Assembly: GCF_902859765.1 (NCBI RefSeq)
Contig: NZ_CADIJV010000010.1
Location: 62,001 to 126,000, forward strand
Origin: Achromobacter pulmonis
Lineage (GTDB): Bacteria > Pseudomonadota > Gammaproteobacteria > Burkholderiales > Burkholderiaceae_B
Length of the DNA: 64,000 bases
Direction: 5' to 3'
Part shown: piece after piece, positions 42,540 through 48,916 of the stretch
Numbering within the stretch: the stretch's first letter is position 1
How the letters are laid out: the number at the start of each line of letters is the position of its first letter
Translations under genes and position numbers: made by a program
Notes under the pieces: generated by a model
Databases searched by the model: none
Told to the model about the DNA's origin: nothing
The model's input: the letters and a program-made list of their open reading frames with translations, nothing else

Positions 42540-43457
42540 ATGACCTTCACGCTCAAGCAGGTCGAGACCTTCCGCACCGTCTATGAAACGGAAAGCGTGA
42601 CCGCCGCGGCCCGGCGGCTCGACGTGTCGCCCGCCACCGTCAGCGCCACGCTGGCCGCGCTCGAGGCCGCCATCGAACTGCGCCTGTTCGAACGCGTGCG
42701 CCAGCGCATGCAGCGCACTCCCGAGGCCACGTTGCTGTACGAGGAAATCCGCCGCCTGAACGTGGGCCTGGAAACGCTGGGCCGCAAGATCCGCGCCATC
42801 CGTGGCGCGGCGCAGCCGCGCCTGCGCATTGGTTGCATCCATGCCTACAGCGGTGCGATCGTCAGCGACACGATCGCACGCTTTCGCCAGCGCTATCCCG
42901 ACACCCCCTTGTATTTGCAGATCCGCGACTCGAACACACTGCGCGATATGGTGGTGTCGGGCGAACTCGATCTGGCGGCGGTGGCCGACGAATCCGAACT
43001 GGAGGGCTTGCGCGGCCACCGGCTGGCAAGTCTGCGGGCGGTGGCGGTGTTTCCCGACGGACATCCGCTGGCCCGGGCGCAGCAGGTTGGCCTGGCGCAA
43101 CTGGCCGAGGTCGATGTGATTGCCCTGAACGCCGAGGATGCTTCGCGCCAGCGCCTGGACGCCCTGTTGTTGCAGGCCGGCCTGGGGTTGAAGGTCGCCA
43201 TCGAGACGCCTTATTCCAGCACCGTATGCCATTTGGCGTTGGCGGGTCATGGCGTCGGTATTGCCAATCCGGCGACCGCTGTCGGTCTGGAGGCGGCGGG
43301 GTTATGTCACCGGCCGCTGGCGGCGCCGGTGCATTTCGAATGCCACATGATCGTGCATGGCAGCCGGCCGCTGTCCGAGGCAGGCAAGTACTGGGCGACC
43401 TGCCTGCGCGCGGCGCTGGCGCCGCTGGTGGAGCGCTACGGCGTCAAGCGCGCCTGA
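42540..43457 (+). CDS. LysR-family transcriptional regulator
   Basis: A 305-residue LTTR. The winged helix is at the N-terminus (LKQVETFRTVYETESVTAAARRLDVSPATVSATL, about 5-38), followed by an effector domain beginning LRIGCIHAYSGAIVSDTIARFRQRYP. The start is 19 bases after recO, on the same strand, so read-through from the recO transcript is likely. It is convergent with the PLP-enzyme gene (38-base gap), so it is a plausible regulator of that minus-strand cluster even though it is not divergent from it. The inducer is unknown. Confidence 0.88.
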   Translation: MTFTLKQVETFRTVYETESVTAAARRLDVSPATVSATLAALEAAIELRLFERVRQRMQRTPEATLLYEEIRRLNVGLETLGRKIRAIRGAAQPRLRIGCIHAYSGAIVSDTIARFRQRYPDTPLYLQIRDSNTLRDMVVSGELDLAAVADESELEGLRGHRLASLRAVAVFPDGHPLARAQQVGLAQLAEVDVIALNAEDASRQRLDALLLQAGLGLKVAIETPYSSTVCHLALAGHGVGIANPATAVGLEAAGLCHRPLAAPVHFECHMIVHGSRPLSEAGKYWATCLRAALAPLVERYGVKRA

Positions 43458-43495: not shown

Positions 43496-44593
43496 CTAAC
43501 CACGGCGGCCGTCCGATGTGTGGATCAACACCACCGATGATTCCGCATCCAACTGGCCGGCGCGGCGCAGGCGTGTGACCGCCGCCAGCGCTGCCGCCGA
43601 CGACAATTCCGTGGCCATTCCCATGCGTTCCAGGCGCTGCTGTGCCTGGGCGGCGGCAGCGTCGGAAACGTCGACCGGCGAACCGCCTGAACGCCGCAGG
43701 GCCTCCAGCGCCTGCAGCGTGACGGTGCCGCCGGCAATCGAGTACTGGTCGGTCGAGCCTTCCCAGAGGCCGCGGGCATCGCCGGCGCTGCGCGCGCGCG
43801 CCAGGCGGGCATAGGGTTCGACCGCGTGCAGTCGCGGCAGGCGCGGGATACGGCCGGCGCGCAGCAGGTGCTGCCAACCGAGCAAAATGCCCCAGAGCAG
43901 GTCGCCACGCGCGGTCGGCACCACGATATCGGTGGGCAGGCCGCAGGCATCGAGGATTTCCTGCGCGATGGGCTTGTAGCCTTCGACGCCGTACGGATGT
44001 GTCCCCACCGGCGGGTTCAGGTAGTTGGTCCCGGCGAAGGCGCCCTGATTGCGGCACAGGTCCGCCACGTGCGGCCAGCGTGCCAGGCTGTCGTCGAAGG
44101 CAGTGAGATGGGCGCCGAAGCGTTGCATGGCCTCGCGTTGCAGCGGCGGGCAGTTGCGGGTGATGGCGATGTCGGCCCGCAGGCCGGCCGCGGCGCAGTA
44201 GGCCGCCAGCGAGACGCCGGCATTGCCGCTGGAGGCGGCAGCCACGCGTTGCGCGCCGGCCAAGCGCGCACGCGACACCAACTGGGCGGCCATGCGGTCC
44301 TTGTGGCTGCCGGTGGGGTTGGCGCTTTCGCACTTGAGCCACAGCTGTCCGACGCCTTCGGTCTTTGCCAGGGCGTCGGCCTCCAGGCAGGGCGTGGCGC
44401 CCTCGCCGAGGGTCACGGGCTGCCATACCGGCAGTTCCATGGCATCGCCGGGCGCTGCATCGTAGTGGCATTCTAGCGAAGCCGGATGGCCAGCCGCGAG
44501 GCAGTGCGGGCAACCTTCGGGGTAGTCGGCGGGGGGCAGCAGGGCTTCGCAGCGCAGGCAGCGCAGGCCGGACAAGCGGGGGTTCATCTGCAT
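43496..44593 (-). CDS. PLP-dependent enzyme, threonine-synthase-like with zinc-ribbon N-terminus
   Basis: A fold-type II PLP enzyme of 365 residues. The N-terminus has two CxxC pairs (Cys12/15 and Cys28/31), as in a subset of threonine-synthase-like proteins. PLP Lys98 lies in NPTGSHKDRMA, the asparagine/serine loop is AASSGNAGVSLA, and the phosphate-cup Gly-rich loop is replaced by the less typical VVPTARGDLLWGILLGW. The family catalyses beta- or gamma-elimination/replacement on amino acids. True ThrC works on phosphohomoserine; with a deacylase and Bug receptor in the same operon, a catabolic lyase on an amino acid is more likely, but the substrate is unknown. The start is ATG 44593, 3 bases after the deacylase stop. 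Confidence 0.82.
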   Translation of the reverse strand: MQMNPRLSGLRCLRCEALLPPADYPEGCPHCLAAGHPASLECHYDAAPGDAMELPVWQPVTLGEGATPCLEADALAKTEGVGQLWLKCESANPTGSHKDRMAAQLVSRARLAGAQRVAAASSGNAGVSLAAYCAAAGLRADIAITRNCPPLQREAMQRFGAHLTAFDDSLARWPHVADLCRNQGAFAGTNYLNPPVGTHPYGVEGYKPIAQEILDACGLPTDIVVPTARGDLLWGILLGWQHLLRAGRIPRLPRLHAVEPYARLARARSAGDARGLWEGSTDQYSIAGGTVTLQALEALRRSGGSPVDVSDAAAAQAQQRLERMGMATELSSAAALAAVTRLRRAGQLDAESSVVLIHTSDGRRG

Positions 44594-44596
44594 GAG

Positions 44597-45574
44597 TCAG
44601 TACAACGAGGCTAGGGAGTCCAGGGAGAGGGCGGGGGCCACTTGCAGCAGGCAGTCGCCGTCATCGCTGCGGGCGATGGCGCGCAGGCAGACGACGGTGC
44701 CTGTCTGCGGGCTGGCGAGGGTGCGCGCGGGCTGGTCGGGGCGCGCCGGTTCGATGAGCTGGCCGATGGCCTGGCCCGCCGTCACGGCCTGGCCCAGGTC
44801 GACGGCGGGGATGAAGACGCCGCTTTCGCGTGCGCGCAGGGTGGCGGCCGGGGCGTCCAGATCGTGCAGCGTGGGGCTGGCGGGGCGGGGCGGGGCGCCC
44901 GCCAGCAGCCCGAGTTCGGCCAGGCAGCCGAGCAGGCCGTCGCGGCAGCGCGCCACCAGCGTGTGGGTGGTTTCGCCGCCGCCGCCGATTTCCGCGCTCA
45001 GGCGCAGCACGCCCAGGCGACTGGCGGCGGCCGGCAGGGAGCCGCTTTCGCCGCCCCGGAAGAACACGCATTGCGGCAGGCCGAAGGCGCGCGCCAGCGC
45101 CGGCAGGCGCTCATCGAATGCGTCATCGCCATAGCGCGTGATGACCGACGACGGCAGGTAGCGCAGCGAGGCGCCGCCACTATGTACGTCGACCAGGGCC
45201 TGGACGCGCGGCAGCAACCGGGCTTGCAGCGCGGCGGCCACGCTTTCGGTGTAGCCGCGTGCCGGCGCGCCGAGGAAGGCGCGATTGAGATTGCCGTGGT
45301 CCGACGGCGACAACCGGGTACCGGCCAGCGATGCCTCGGCGTTGGCGGCGGGCAGCAGGTAAACGGTGCCGCGTTGCAGTACGCCAGGCAACAGTTGCCA
45401 GAGTTGCAGGATGGCGGCCTGGCCCTCCCACTCGTCGCCATGCACGCCAGCCAGCAGCGCGACGGCAGGGCCGGGACCCGCGTCGATCTTCAGAACCGGC
45501 ACGGTGATGCGCCGGTAGGCCGAGGCGTTGGTGGCCGCGGCGCAGGTGAAGTCTTCGCGGCTTACCTGGGCCAT
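44597..45574 (-). CDS. M14-family zinc deacylase (aspartoacylase/succinylglutamate desuccinylase type)
   Basis: Likely removes an acyl group from an N-acyl amino acid or related amide. The 325-residue protein has zinc ligands His45 and Glu48 in AGVHGDEWEGQ and His131 in VDVHSGG, a catalytic glutamate in LRLSAEIGGGG, and a C-terminal barrel-like domain (about 240-325, ending SPQTGTVVCLRAIA). The architecture resembles DoeB, the N-acetyl-diaminobutyrate deacetylase of ectoine degradation, but no other ectoine genes are here. No signal peptide is seen, so it is cytoplasmic. It is in one operon with the Bug receptor (34-base gap) and the PLP enzyme (3-base gap). Confidence 0.85.
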   Translation of the reverse strand: MAQVSREDFTCAAATNASAYRRITVPVLKIDAGPGPAVALLAGVHGDEWEGQAAILQLWQLLPGVLQRGTVYLLPAANAEASLAGTRLSPSDHGNLNRAFLGAPARGYTESVAAALQARLLPRVQALVDVHSGGASLRYLPSSVITRYGDDAFDERLPALARAFGLPQCVFFRGGESGSLPAAASRLGVLRLSAEIGGGGETTHTLVARCRDGLLGCLAELGLLAGAPPRPASPTLHDLDAPAATLRARESGVFIPAVDLGQAVTAGQAIGQLIEPARPDQPARTLASPQTGTVVCLRAIARSDDGDCLLQVAPALSLDSLASLY

Positions 45575-45608
45575 GGTGCGTCTCCGGGGCGTGCGGGGCG
45601 GTCGGTCA

Positions 45609-46571
45609 TCAGTCCAGCGTGGTGCCGGCCGCCTTGATGATGTTTTCCCATTTGGGCAATTCCTTCTGGATCTGGGTCTTGACCTGGTCGGGCGTGCCGC
45701 CCAGCGGTTCTTGCGATCGACTGCGCAATTCCCTGGCGATCGCGTCCGAATGCAGGGCTTTATTCATGGCGGTATTCAGCCGCGCGATCACCGCGGGCGG
45801 GGTGCCGGCCGGCGCCACCAGGGCGCTCCAGGCCGATTGCTCGTAATCGGGATAGCCCTGCTCGGCTACTGTCGGCACATCGGGATTCGAGGCGGCGCGG
45901 CGCCGGGTCGTCACGGCCAGGGCGCGCAGCCGGCCGTCCTTCAGATTGCCGATGAGCGGCGGCAGGTTTTCCATCATGGCATCCACATGGCCGCCCAGCA
46001 GGTCGGCCAGTTGGGCGGCGGTGGCCTTGTACGGAATCTGGCGTACAGCCGCGCCGGTCTGGGCGATGAACAATTTGACGCCGACTTCGCTGGTGGTGCC
46101 CGGGTCGGCCGAGGTCATGGTCAATCGGTCGGGCTGGGCGCGGCTGGCGTCGATGAAGTGCTTGAGATCGCGATAGGGCGAGGTTGCCTTGACGACGATG
46201 ACGTTCGGTGTCTCGGCCACCAGCCCGATGGGGACGATGTCTCGGTCGAGGTCGTAGAGTTGTTGCTTGAAGAGATAGCGATGCAGCACCAGCGTGCCGA
46301 CGTGGGCGTAGCCGATGGTGTAGCCATCGGCCGCGGCGCGCACCAGCGCCTGCGTGCCGATGCGGCCTCCGGCGCCGACACGGTTTTCCACCACCACCGC
46401 CTGGCCCAGCTGGCGCGCCATTTCCTGACCGATCAGGCGGGCGGTGATGTCGGCGTTGCCGCCGGCGGCGGCGGGCACGATCAGCGTGATCGGGCGTTCG
46501 GGATAATCGGCCAGCGCGGGCGCGGCGGTCAGGCTGAGCAACAGGGCGGCAAGGCTGGCGATGCGTGTCAT
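45609..46571 (-). CDS. Bug-family tripartite tricarboxylate-type solute-binding receptor
   Basis: A periplasmic receptor, hugely expanded in Bordetella. The 320-residue precursor starts at ATG 46571 with the signal peptide MTRIASLAALLLSLTAAPALA. The mature part has YPERPITLIVPAAAGGNADITARL (Bug beta1 and its loop, where GG-x-D contacts a ligand carboxylate), RVGAGGRIGTQ, and FIAQTGAAVRQIPYKATAAQL. Bug proteins usually bind carboxylates, including dicarboxylates and amino acids. It lacks an adjacent TctA/TctB permease. It is first of a three-gene set leading into the M14 deacylase and PLP enzyme. Confidence 0.93.
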   Translation of the reverse strand: MTRIASLAALLLSLTAAPALADYPERPITLIVPAAAGGNADITARLIGQEMARQLGQAVVVENRVGAGGRIGTQALVRAAADGYTIGYAHVGTLVLHRYLFKQQLYDLDRDIVPIGLVAETPNVIVVKATSPYRDLKHFIDASRAQPDRLTMTSADPGTTSEVGVKLFIAQTGAAVRQIPYKATAAQLADLLGGHVDAMMENLPPLIGNLKDGRLRALAVTTRRRAASNPDVPTVAEQGYPDYEQSAWSALVAPAGTPPAVIARLNTAMNKALHSDAIARELRSRSQEPLGGTPDQVKTQIQKELPKWENIIKAAGTTLD

Positions 46572-46661
46572 GGCGGTTCCCGGAACGTTGAGGGCTGCGC
46601 TATTGTGCGGCGGCAACGGCCGAAATCCGTTTGGTTGAATCAGATGGTCATTCTGGAAAAC

Positions 46662-47948
46662 CTAAGAATTGGAGGGCGCTTGCCGATCGGCCCGGCGCCC
46701 CAATCCGTAGCCGAGCGTCGCCGCGGCCAGCGCGCACAGCACACCGAGCAAGGCGATCAGCGCCACGCCGTGGCCGAGCGCGTCGATGCCCGCCTTGACC
46801 CAGCCGCTGGCCGCATCGCCGGCACGGTAGACCACGGTGTCGATGACGTTCTTGGCCTTGTATTTGTCCTCGGGCGATACCGCGGTGAACAGCATCTCGC
46901 GCCCGGGCTTGACCAAGGCGTATTCGCCCACGCGGCGCAGGATCATGGCGCCGGCCAGGACGGTGAATACCGGATGGACCGCCAGCAGCAGGAAGGCCAG
47001 CGCCATCGCCAGTGGCACCGCCGCCACCAGGAAGCGCACCCCGAGCCGGGCGGCGAGCCGGCTTGTGAGGAACAATTGCGACAACAGCGACAGCGCCTGG
47101 ACAGTGAAGTCCAGCACGGCGAAGACACGGATGCGTTGCGCCGTGTCGGGGAATGCGGCGGCCACCAGCCGCGCCTGCTCCATGTAGAGAAAGGTGCTGA
47201 GCGTCGCCAGCAGCAGGACCAGCGCGGCGATGCCCAGGAGATAGGACGACTGGAACACCCGCGCCAGACCGGCCAGGGTGGCGCCGCGGATCGGCGCCGC
47301 CAGCTCGGTGGTGTCGGCGTCCGAGCGCGTTGCGGCGCGCCAGCGTAGCAGCCAGCGCTTGAGCGGCAGCGTCGCTGCCAGCAACAGAGCCGACAGCAGC
47401 AGCAGGCCCGCCGGCCCCAGCGTGCCGGCCAGCAGGCCGCCCAGCAGCGGACCGCACAGGCCGCCGGCGCTGGCGCCGGCGGCGATGAAGGCGAACAGGC
47501 GTTTGGCCGAGTCCATGCGGAACACGTCGGCCATCAGGCTCCAGCCGAGCGAGACCACGAACAGATTGAAGACCGAGAGCCAGACGTAGAAGCTGCGCGC
47601 GGCCCAGATGCCGTCCGGCCGCCAATGGAACAGCGCGGCGTAGCAGGCCATGGTGATGGCGAAGGCGGCGTAGGCCCAGGTCACCAGCGCGGCGCGCGCG
47701 ACCCGGGCCGACAGCCAGCCGAACAGCGGCACCACCGCCAGCATGGCAAGAAAAGTGGCGGTGAACAGCCATTGCAACTGGTCGACACCCGCCTGGATGC
47801 CCAGGGTTTCGCGTAGCGGGCGCAGCATGAAATAGCCGCAGAACAGGAAAAAGAAAAAGGCGAAACCGCAGGCGCCGGCCGCCAGCTCGCCGGTCTCGAT
47901 GCCCAGCGCTTGCGCCGCCCGGCGGCGCCAGGAATCGCCGGCTCGCAT
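46662..47948 (-). CDS. MFS protein related to ATP/ADP (NTP/NDP) translocases
   Basis: A 428-residue membrane protein with about 12 helices. GYFMLRPLRETLGIQAGVDQLQWLF near the N-terminus, and RRVGEYALVKPGREMLFTAVSPEDKYKAKNVIDTVVYR in the second half, are the signatures of the nucleotide-translocase-like MFS group. In obligate intracellular bacteria such proteins exchange host ATP; in free-living bacteria the function is unknown. The start is ATG 47948 (MRAGDSWRRRAAQALG), 4 bases after the aldo/keto-reductase stop, so the two are co-transcribed. Confidence 0.85.
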   Translation of the reverse strand: MRAGDSWRRRAAQALGIETGELAAGACGFAFFFFLFCGYFMLRPLRETLGIQAGVDQLQWLFTATFLAMLAVVPLFGWLSARVARAALVTWAYAAFAITMACYAALFHWRPDGIWAARSFYVWLSVFNLFVVSLGWSLMADVFRMDSAKRLFAFIAAGASAGGLCGPLLGGLLAGTLGPAGLLLLSALLLAATLPLKRWLLRWRAATRSDADTTELAAPIRGATLAGLARVFQSSYLLGIAALVLLLATLSTFLYMEQARLVAAAFPDTAQRIRVFAVLDFTVQALSLLSQLFLTSRLAARLGVRFLVAAVPLAMALAFLLLAVHPVFTVLAGAMILRRVGEYALVKPGREMLFTAVSPEDKYKAKNVIDTVVYRAGDAASGWVKAGIDALGHGVALIALLGVLCALAAATLGYGLGRRADRQAPSNS

Positions 47949-47952
47949 GGTT

Positions 47953-48870
47953 TCAGTCCAGCAGGGCGGCGATGCGTTCGCGCAAGGCGGCGTCTGGTTG
48001 GCGGCCGAAACCGGCCTGTGCATTGGCCGCCATGTTGGCGGGCTTGGAGGTGGCGGGGATGGTGGCGGTCACGGCCGGATGGCCAATGATGAACTTCAGG
48101 AACAGTTGCGCCCACGACGTGCAGCCGATTTCGGCGGCCAGGTCCGGCAGCGGCCGGCCCCTGACCTGGCGGAACAGCGCGCCATCCTGGAACGGCCGGT
48201 TGATGAGCACCGCGACGCCATTGGCCTGGCAGGCCGGCAGCAGGCGCTTTTCGGCATTGCGCGCGCCCACCGACAGGTTGATCTGCACGAAGTCGGGCCG
48301 CTCCTTTTCGACCAGCCCGGTCAGTTCGTCATGGGCGGCGTCGGTGTAGTGCGTGATGCCGATGTAGCGCGTCACGCCCTGCTGCTTGAGTTCGCGCAGC
48401 AGCGCCAACTGGTTGCGAGTATCGATCAGGTTGTGGACCTGGATCAGGTCGAGCTTTTGCGTGCGCAGCGCGCGCAGCGAGTTCTCGATCTGGCGCCGGG
48501 CCGCCTCGTGGCCCTGGGTGCTGATCTTGGTGGCCAGGAACACCAATGGACGCCGGTCCGGCTCGCGCGCCAGCAGCGCGCCGGTAACCGCCTCGGCCTG
48601 GCCGTAGCTGGGGGCGGTGTCGATCAGCGCGCCGCGCGCCGCCAGCAATGCATCCACGACCTGCGCCAGTGGCGCCATCGCTGCCGCGTCCGAGGGCGGC
48701 ACGTTGAAGGTGTCGGCAGTGCCCAGGCCGATCACCGGCAGCATGTCGCCCGTGGACCAGATCGGGCGGGCCAGCATCGGCTGCCGCGTGGTCAGGGCGC
48801 TTGCTGTCCAGGGCTGGGCCAGCAAGGGGGCGCAGGCAGCGGCCTGCAGGAATCGACGGCGGTCGGGCAT
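47953..48870 (-). CDS. Aldo/keto reductase with twin-arginine signal
   Basis: A 305-residue AKR. The N-terminus MPDRRRFLQAAACAPLLAQPW is a twin-arginine signal (RRRFLQ), so export to the periplasm is predicted. That is unusual for a family that uses cytosolic NADPH. Conserved parts are PVIGLGTAD, LIDTAPSYGQAE, LATKI (active-site lysine), LIQVHNLID, and a C-terminal ATIPATSKPANMAANAQAGFG, which replaces the usual IPGxxxxxQ cofactor segment. The expected catalytic Tyr lies in APSYGQAE. It heads the AKR-MFS pair after the BI-1 gene's terminator. Confidence 0.85.
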   Translation of the reverse strand: MPDRRRFLQAAACAPLLAQPWTASALTTRQPMLARPIWSTGDMLPVIGLGTADTFNVPPSDAAAMAPLAQVVDALLAARGALIDTAPSYGQAEAVTGALLAREPDRRPLVFLATKISTQGHEAARRQIENSLRALRTQKLDLIQVHNLIDTRNQLALLRELKQQGVTRYIGITHYTDAAHDELTGLVEKERPDFVQINLSVGARNAEKRLLPACQANGVAVLINRPFQDGALFRQVRGRPLPDLAAEIGCTSWAQLFLKFIIGHPAVTATIPATSKPANMAANAQAGFGRQPDAALRERIAALLD

Positions 48871-48884
48871 GGCTCGCTCCAATG

Positions 48885-48916
48885 AAAAAGGGCCCGCATA
48901 TTGCATGCAGGCCCTT
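48885..48916 (-). terminator. Rho-independent terminator after the BI-1 gene
   Basis: Read on the minus strand, AAGGGCC(T)GCAT and ATGC(G)GGCCCTT form a near-perfect stem around GCAAT, followed by TTTC. It separates the BI-1 gene from the AKR. Confidence 0.85.

Follow-up and report, generated by a model that had tools for sequence, protein, structure and literature searches.

We describe a four-gene cassette in a 64,000-nt stretch of the Achromobacter pulmonis genome (GCF_902859765.1, contig NZ_CADIJV010000010.1, positions 62,001-126,000 of the forward strand), which we call the window. It consists of a LysR-type regulator gene and a trio of minus-strand genes encoding a Bug/TctC periplasmic receptor, an M14-type zinc deacylase and a fold-type II pyridoxal phosphate (PLP) enzyme. 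We propose that this is a catabolic cassette that would take up an N-acyl amino acid, deacylate it and degrade the freed amino acid by PLP-dependent elimination, a reading to which we give about an even chance. It rests on the conservation of the genes as a unit, their absence as a block, M14-PLP pairs elsewhere, receptor and ATP-binding cassette (ABC) transporter genes beside related PLP genes, and unusual residues in the receptor. The four genes are kept together as one block in Achromobacter and two related genera. Among the titles and abstract openings that literature searches listed, none described the gene set.

The Bug gene (45609..46571, minus strand, 320 aa) encodes a protein matching TctC (PF03401) with 226.4 bits. 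It is followed after 34 bases by the M14 gene (44597..45574, minus strand, 325 aa), which matched AstE_AspA_cat (PF24827) with 84.7 bits against a cut-off of 25, and after another 3 bases by the PLP gene (43496..44593, minus strand, 365 aa), which matched PALP (PF00291) with 222.7 bits. All three matches exceeded the Pfam cut-offs. The LysR gene (42540..43457, plus strand; HTH_1 PF00126 and LysR_substrate PF03466) is convergent with the trio. A sequence-only reading of the window had proposed the three genes with these gaps and these protein types, as well as a zinc-ribbon N-terminus on the PLP enzyme. The coordinates, gaps and types were all borne out, and the cysteines of the ribbon (C12, C15, C28 and C31) were invariant in 79/79 relatives. 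Comparing the three trio genes with those of seven relatives gave dN/dS ratios of 0.09-0.29 in 21 comparisons, so the trio does not consist of chance open reading frames (ORFs), and we conclude that the three genes are real and conserved. None of the NCBIfam families listed for the trio and LysR proteins (the best 25 of 39 for PLP, both of two for M14, none for Bug and the best 25 of 52 for LysR) reached its cut-off.

Relatives of the PLP gene were collected in a named scan of one genome per species, covering 84,980 species. The scan used the peptides NPTGSHKD and GAFAGTNY as patterns, so that relatives without them were missed. It detected 372 relatives, of which the best 80 were studied. Twenty-eight of these loci, at 73-90% identity, form group a (27 Achromobacter and one Bordetella genomosp. 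2), and the nearest named relatives are Achromobacter. The LysR, PLP, M14 and Bug genes occurred in the same order in 27 of the 28 loci, while in the remaining one (L041) the contig ends inside the M14 gene; the LysR gene was present in all 28. The three-gene order was also kept in 20/20 first loci, the window's own included, confirming the trio as a conserved unit. In a set of 41 genomes (the window's own, 24 of the same genus and 16 of other families), the PLP gene (74-100% identity) and the M14 gene (79-100%) adjoin in 23 of the 25 genus genomes, and in the 16 genomes of other families no PLP or M14 match covering most of the protein rose above 36-37% identity. Among 151 genomes of the family that were drawn separately, eight, the window's own among them, had the PLP gene at E <= 1e-40, and the M14 gene adjoined it in all eight.

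The two genus genomes without PLP and M14 orthologues (G005 and G017) lack all four genes at the site. There, recO adjoins a major facilitator superfamily (MFS) gene, with 71 and 16 bases between the ORF calls, and the MFS, aldo/keto reductase (AKR) and BI-1 genes are retained. Either the cassette was lost from these genomes or they never acquired it. In the window, MFS-like and AKR-like genes lie 5' of the Bug gene (46662-48906). Conversely to their retention in G005 and G017, they had no match in three cases that carry all four cassette genes (L022, L025 and L021, the last of which shares its genome with L063), and we rejected them as part of the unit. Since the four genes are missing together and the MFS and AKR genes vary independently, we take the trio together with LysR as the unit. 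The joint absence also supports the LysR gene at 42540, named as a likely sensor in the sequence-only reading, as a member of this unit.

A block 5' of the Bug gene (46595..46665, minus strand), the first bases of which overlap the MFS gene stop codon, was conserved in an alignment of 28 sequences, among them two in which it has no MFS gene before it (L063 and L022). This block is probably the promoter or regulator region of the trio. No sigma-70 consensus was found in it, and the promoter and terminator scan gave zero and one matches, respectively, not above shuffles. At L022:8171-10243 (genome G130), AVDVADEQ-like repeats make up a 32-residue insert in the PLP gene, and the M14 gene (291 aa) aligns only from residue 36 onward; the cassette may be decaying there.

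The receptor has an unusual ligand pocket (A34, D156, E162 and A183). We compared it with all 90 other TctC proteins of the genome and with 26 group-a receptors from 24 genomes, two of which were read twice. At position 34, 84/90 of the other Bugs have an aromatic residue or His and one has Ala; position 183 is Gly in 84/90 and Ala in none, position 156 is Gly in 85/90 and Asp in none, and position 162 is His in 77/90 and Glu in none. All 26 group-a receptors carried Ala34, Ala183, Asp156 and Glu162. In their P-F-x-A-G-G-x-x-D motif, G-G-x-x-D was kept in 25/26 and the aromatic residue was replaced by Ala in 26/26. The best PDB match was 8hka, a terephthalate receptor. In the available part of a study of TphC (PMC8556258), F30 is an aromatic residue at the border of the pocket, G178 lies close by and helps position F30, and the ligand is contacted by T155 and Q150, either directly or via water; the same text states that the receptors of tripartite tricarboxylate transporters (TTT) known at publication bound dicarboxylates, Bug27 excepted. 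When TphC residues are mapped to the cassette receptor by motif, lid and partner are lost together and two acids are new, which suggests that the ligand is bulkier and carries a positive group. Most Bug receptors are without an assigned ligand, and a receptor with altered pocket residues that gene order links to two enzymes offers a good start in the search for a new ligand class.

The M14 protein belongs to the AstE/AspA superfamily, as indicated by its PF24827 match and an H-x-x-E...H metal site; H45, E48, H131 and E195 were invariant in 16/16 aligned sequences. The sequence-only reading had ascribed a DoeB-like architecture to it and called for a profile comparison with DoeB, AstE and AspA. 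DoeB (TIGR02994) is indeed its best NCBIfam match, but at 140.1 bits it falls far below the cut-off of 402.7. The aspartoacylase model PRK02259 scored 22.1 bits against a cut-off of 180, and the AstE model was unlisted at E <= 0.01. By the curated cut-offs the protein is thus neither DoeB nor AstE, and we rejected both identities. By position in the gene listings, three of the four AstE_AspA genes of the genome adjoin a TctC gene, the trio's included, and besides the trio's, two AstE_AspA-type genes of this genome adjoin a same-strand TctC gene at G000:C3:16807-18172 and G000:C3:259489-260967 (L127 and L128). The combination of Bug and M14 may be a wider theme.

The PLP alignment comprised 79 rows, the window's protein and 78 of the best 80 loci, as L105 and L111 gave no usable PLP protein. 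In addition to the four cysteines, R172, W173, N190, R229, D231, R263, S285 and T290 were invariant in all rows. The PLP lysine K98 in NPTGSHKD was likewise present in 79/79, partly by selection because the motif was a search pattern. The PF00291 match and this lysine together place the protein in the PALP fold-type II family. The closest solved structures are threonine synthases (6cgq, E 1.1e-42). The thrC model TIGR00260 gave 66.3 bits against a cut-off of 167.1 and the threonine synthase model PRK08197 gave 137.4 against 303, whereas a true thrC elsewhere in the genome scored 242.3 bits in a genome search where the window's PLP gene scored 64.7. The VGNAGN loop of threonine synthase is replaced by T-A-R-G-D in the window's protein, with R229-x-D231 in 79/79 rows, and the column of the Arg in its R-L-E-G motif holds Gly in 67/79 and Ala in 12/79. 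Both the GNAGN loop and this Arg bind phosphate groups in threonine synthase. A thrC identity, which would have counted against the sequence-only reading, was rejected on the cut-offs and the separate true thrC, and EutB (TIGR02991) was rejected at 35 bits against 413.35.

Outside group a, we searched 2 kb around the PLP gene at 52 related loci with the window's proteins (tblastn, E <= 1e-6). LysR was found at 36 loci, Bug at 31, LysR and Bug together at 31, M14 at eight and none of them at eight; at L088 a Bug gene lies slightly beyond 2 kb. The eight M14 loci of other genera show that related M14-PLP pairs extend beyond this group. Three groups could be recognized by their neighbours. In group b (Paraburkholderia, one Cupriavidus, Chelativorans and Mesorhizobium), M14 and PLP form a pair, accompanied at several loci by genes for M24 hydrolase, MmgE/PrpD, amino-acid solute-binding protein (SBP), ABC and GntR proteins. 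Group c (Comamonadaceae, Cupriavidus and others) has LysR-PLP-Bug. Group d (Bosea and a Hyphomicrobiales metagenome-assembled genome) has LysR-PLP followed by an amino-acid-type binding protein, identified by eye, and ABC permeases; a lyase exceeded the argH cut-off in L092, and L120 has a DAO oxidoreductase. The neighbourhoods of loci beyond groups a-d are scattered. At the Bosea-type loci L092, L099, L103 and L120, the PLP gene stands with amino-acid-type ABC genes and an argininosuccinate-lyase-like gene, and at three of them with a DAO-type oxidoreductase.

The Mesorhizobium locus L074 has an ABC-M14-PLP-M24-MmgE set around the pair and, within 7 kb of it, genes for a GHMP kinase, an SbnA-like PALP (220.8 bits against a cut-off of 349.95) and an MFS transporter, together with a GNAT match that just exceeds its cut-off. 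L075, also from Mesorhizobium, has the same set around the pair and the same gene order by cluster and by eye. These may be make-and-break loci for an N-acetylated amino acid. A GHMP kinase is also present at L111, and an SbnA-like gene at L101, by cluster. SbnA-type enzymes make 2,3-diaminopropionate precursors. The SbnA-like neighbours point to diamino acids, without proving them.

We also inspected 13 other DoeB-like M14 loci, a hand-picked part of the non-orthologous M14 matches. A PALP gene adjoins the M14 gene or lies one gene away in 6/13, as determined by hidden Markov model for L027 and L035, by the position of a EutB- or thrC-model match for L028 and L040, and by eye for L034 and L038. 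Since L027 and L028 had been picked for a neighbouring PALP match, the fair count is 4/11. At L027 and L035 the PALP gene resembles dehydratases, unlike the cassette's PLP gene; such DoeB-like deacylases beside PLP dehydratase-type genes support the sequence-only reading. Of eight other M14 genes that were scanned, none reached the DoeB cut-off. Separately, the DoeB-like M14 gene adjoins a RidA-type gene in L029 (by Pfam) and L039, followed in L029 by a gene for a LacI-type regulator, and L032 has a rhodanese-like gene, found by eye, near its M14 gene.

Whether M14 and PLP were paired once or several times was addressed by phylogenetic analysis. In the PLP tree (45 rows after thinning; L103 was left out of the trees for its length), groups a, b, c and d each formed one side of a branch with support of 100/99 to 100/100, and group a joined c and d (98/95). 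A clade of a and b was rejected (approximately unbiased test, p-AU 0.0114), in a test that followed both the definition of the groups by their neighbours and the inspection of a first tree. In the M14 tree, group b forms a clade and the stem of group a is long; neither a clade uniting a with b (p-AU 0.313) nor two other groupings (0.372 and 0.315) were rejected. The quick tree of Bug placed group a among paralogues of its own genome with weakly supported forks, and in a thinned test the score improved on that of the free search when a and c were held together, so that Bug in these two groups may have a common origin. The LysR quick tree, which holds only five own-genome paralogues, grouped the regulators of a and c with a Shimodaira-Hasegawa-like approximate likelihood ratio (SH-aLRT) of 92, below the mark of 95, which gives the sequence-only reading weaker support. 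The LysR of L037, which stands beside an amino-acid-type SBP and an M14 gene, fell among LysR proteins of Ramlibacter and Variovorax PLP loci (99), and therefore ties LysR, M14 and PLP together. One old M14-PLP pairing with losses, a transfer or two pairings could each account for this, and a LysR-PLP(-Bug) core common to a and c to which M14 was added fits the trees without being proved by them.

From this context we infer the following sequence of steps. The ligand of the Bug receptor would be a small N-acylated amino acid that probably also bears a free amino group with a positive charge, an N-acyl-diamino acid for example, and the receptor would pass it on to a shared permease. Deacylation by the M14 zinc enzyme would follow in the cytoplasm, and the zinc-ribbon PLP enzyme would eliminate the beta- or gamma-substituent of the freed amino acid to give a 2-oxo acid and ammonia. 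LysR would sense the substrate or product and control a promoter upstream of Bug. Several observations weigh against this catabolic reading. No M14 was found within 2 kb at 44/52 related PLP loci, which argues against a strict three-step route, and 8/52 had neither M14, Bug nor LysR there. RidA genes no more than 5 kb from 3/52 related PLP genes (by Pfam for two) speak for the reading, but such adjacency is rare. The M14 genes of five SDH-type pairs (L027, L028, L034, L038 and L040) form one clade and therefore count as one lineage. Independent recruitment of M14 and Bug, which would have made the stronger argument, was not upheld by the tests above, and the LysR of group d stands apart from those of a and c. 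Finally, L091 has a biosynthetic look, as its PLP gene comes after genes for an ATP-grasp ligase and an SbnA-like protein (259.8 against 349.95 bits).

This last locus would suit an alternative in which the PLP enzyme is a synthase acting by beta- or gamma-replacement, M14 removes a protecting acyl group, and the cassette as a whole serves to recycle or build an amino acid. The threonine synthases among the solved structures agree with it as well. We nevertheless regard it as unlikely, considering that the operon's own periplasmic receptor and the receptor and ABC genes often present beside relatives elsewhere point to uptake, and that the cassette has no kinase or ligase. A second threonine synthase or a homoserine salvage gene beside unrelated transport genes would account for the fold and the NCBIfam names. 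It is very improbable given the true thrC elsewhere in the genome, the R229-x-D231 loop and the Gly or Ala at the R-L-E-G Arg column in all 79 rows, and the conserved linkage to M14 and Bug.

Two further explanations keep a deacylase followed by a PLP enzyme. Aminoacylase III deacetylates N-acetyl cysteine S-conjugates, and in a mercapturate-type route such a conjugate would be the ligand, M14 would deacetylate it and the PLP enzyme would be a C-S beta-lyase. Enzyme order and chemistry would be the same as in the catabolic reading, the fold is common to cysteine-synthase-like enzymes, and L032 has its rhodanese-like gene; yet the cassette itself has no pointer to sulfur and the acidic residues of the Bug pocket would go unexplained, which makes this route rather improbable. 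Less probable still is a variant of ectoine or hydroxyectoine degradation, with the PLP enzyme as a EutB-like dehydratase and M14 in the role of DoeB, its substrate being N-acetyl-diaminobutyrate. DoeB is the best NCBIfam match of M14, hydroxyectoine clusters hold a deacetylase and a PLP dehydratase (in the available parts of PMC13188858 and PMC5924519), and group b includes loci with an M24 gene weakly like DoeA. Both enzymes, however, miss the DoeB and EutB cut-offs by a wide margin, and the receptor and regulator types are unlike those of described ectoine clusters. The sequence-only reading had noted that the set lacks the other genes of ectoine degradation. In addition, neither EutD nor EutB exceeded its cut-off in any of six genomes (the window's own and five relatives), so by this standard the ectoine partners are not encoded elsewhere in the genome, although 0/14 controls passed either, leaving this search without a positive control; the best DoeA/EutD score in the window's own genome was 44 bits against a cut-off of 613. 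Oxalyldiaminopropionate (ODAP), diaminobutyrate and mercapturate were all considered as substrates, and nothing decides among them.

More speculatively, and we hold this to be doubtful, the PLP gene could mark an undescribed family of zinc-ribbon lyases with an R-x-D loop, a hub of non-protein amino acid catabolism served by lineage-specific receptors, ABC systems and deacylases. The Mesorhizobium loci would then make and break an N-acetylated diamino-acid-like compound, and the Achromobacter cassette would scavenge such compounds. If the catabolic reading is true, a function class would be gained by a PLP family with 372 relatives in the scan, whose best model names are threonine synthase, by a DoeB-like deacylase, and by one of the 91 TctC receptors of the genome.

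Each protein of the trio resembles known systems in part. The receptor shares PF03401 and the G-G-x-x-D motif with TphC, BugD, Bug27 and AdpC, but differs from TphC, as far as the available text on that protein goes, in having Ala for F30, Ala for G178 and an Asp and a Glu in the second ligand loop. The deacylase has the PF24827 catalytic domain and metal-ligand pattern of AstE and AspA (succinylglutamate desuccinylase and aspartoacylase) without fitting their models. Threonine synthases are the closest solved relatives of the PLP family, from which the cassette's enzyme is set apart by its R-x-D loop, its low thrC score and the separate true thrC. The closest known logic is that of EutE/DoeB and EutB in (hydroxy)ectoine catabolism, where a deacetylase of the same M14 superfamily works with a fold-type II PLP enzyme. 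According to the available parts of two sources (PMC5924519 and PMC13188858), hydroxyectoine breakdown was proposed with the deacetylase EutE and the PLP dehydratase EutB in one pathway, and in the available part of another (PMC3187862), deletion of eutB and eutC in Halomonas elongata did not impair growth on ectoine. The cassette differs from these systems in proteins that score far below the curated cut-offs and in lacking the M24 hydrolase, DoeC, DoeD and EutC. Compared with the ectoine clusters in the available parts of PMC5320631 and PMC13188858, it has Bug and LysR in place of the described transporters and regulators.

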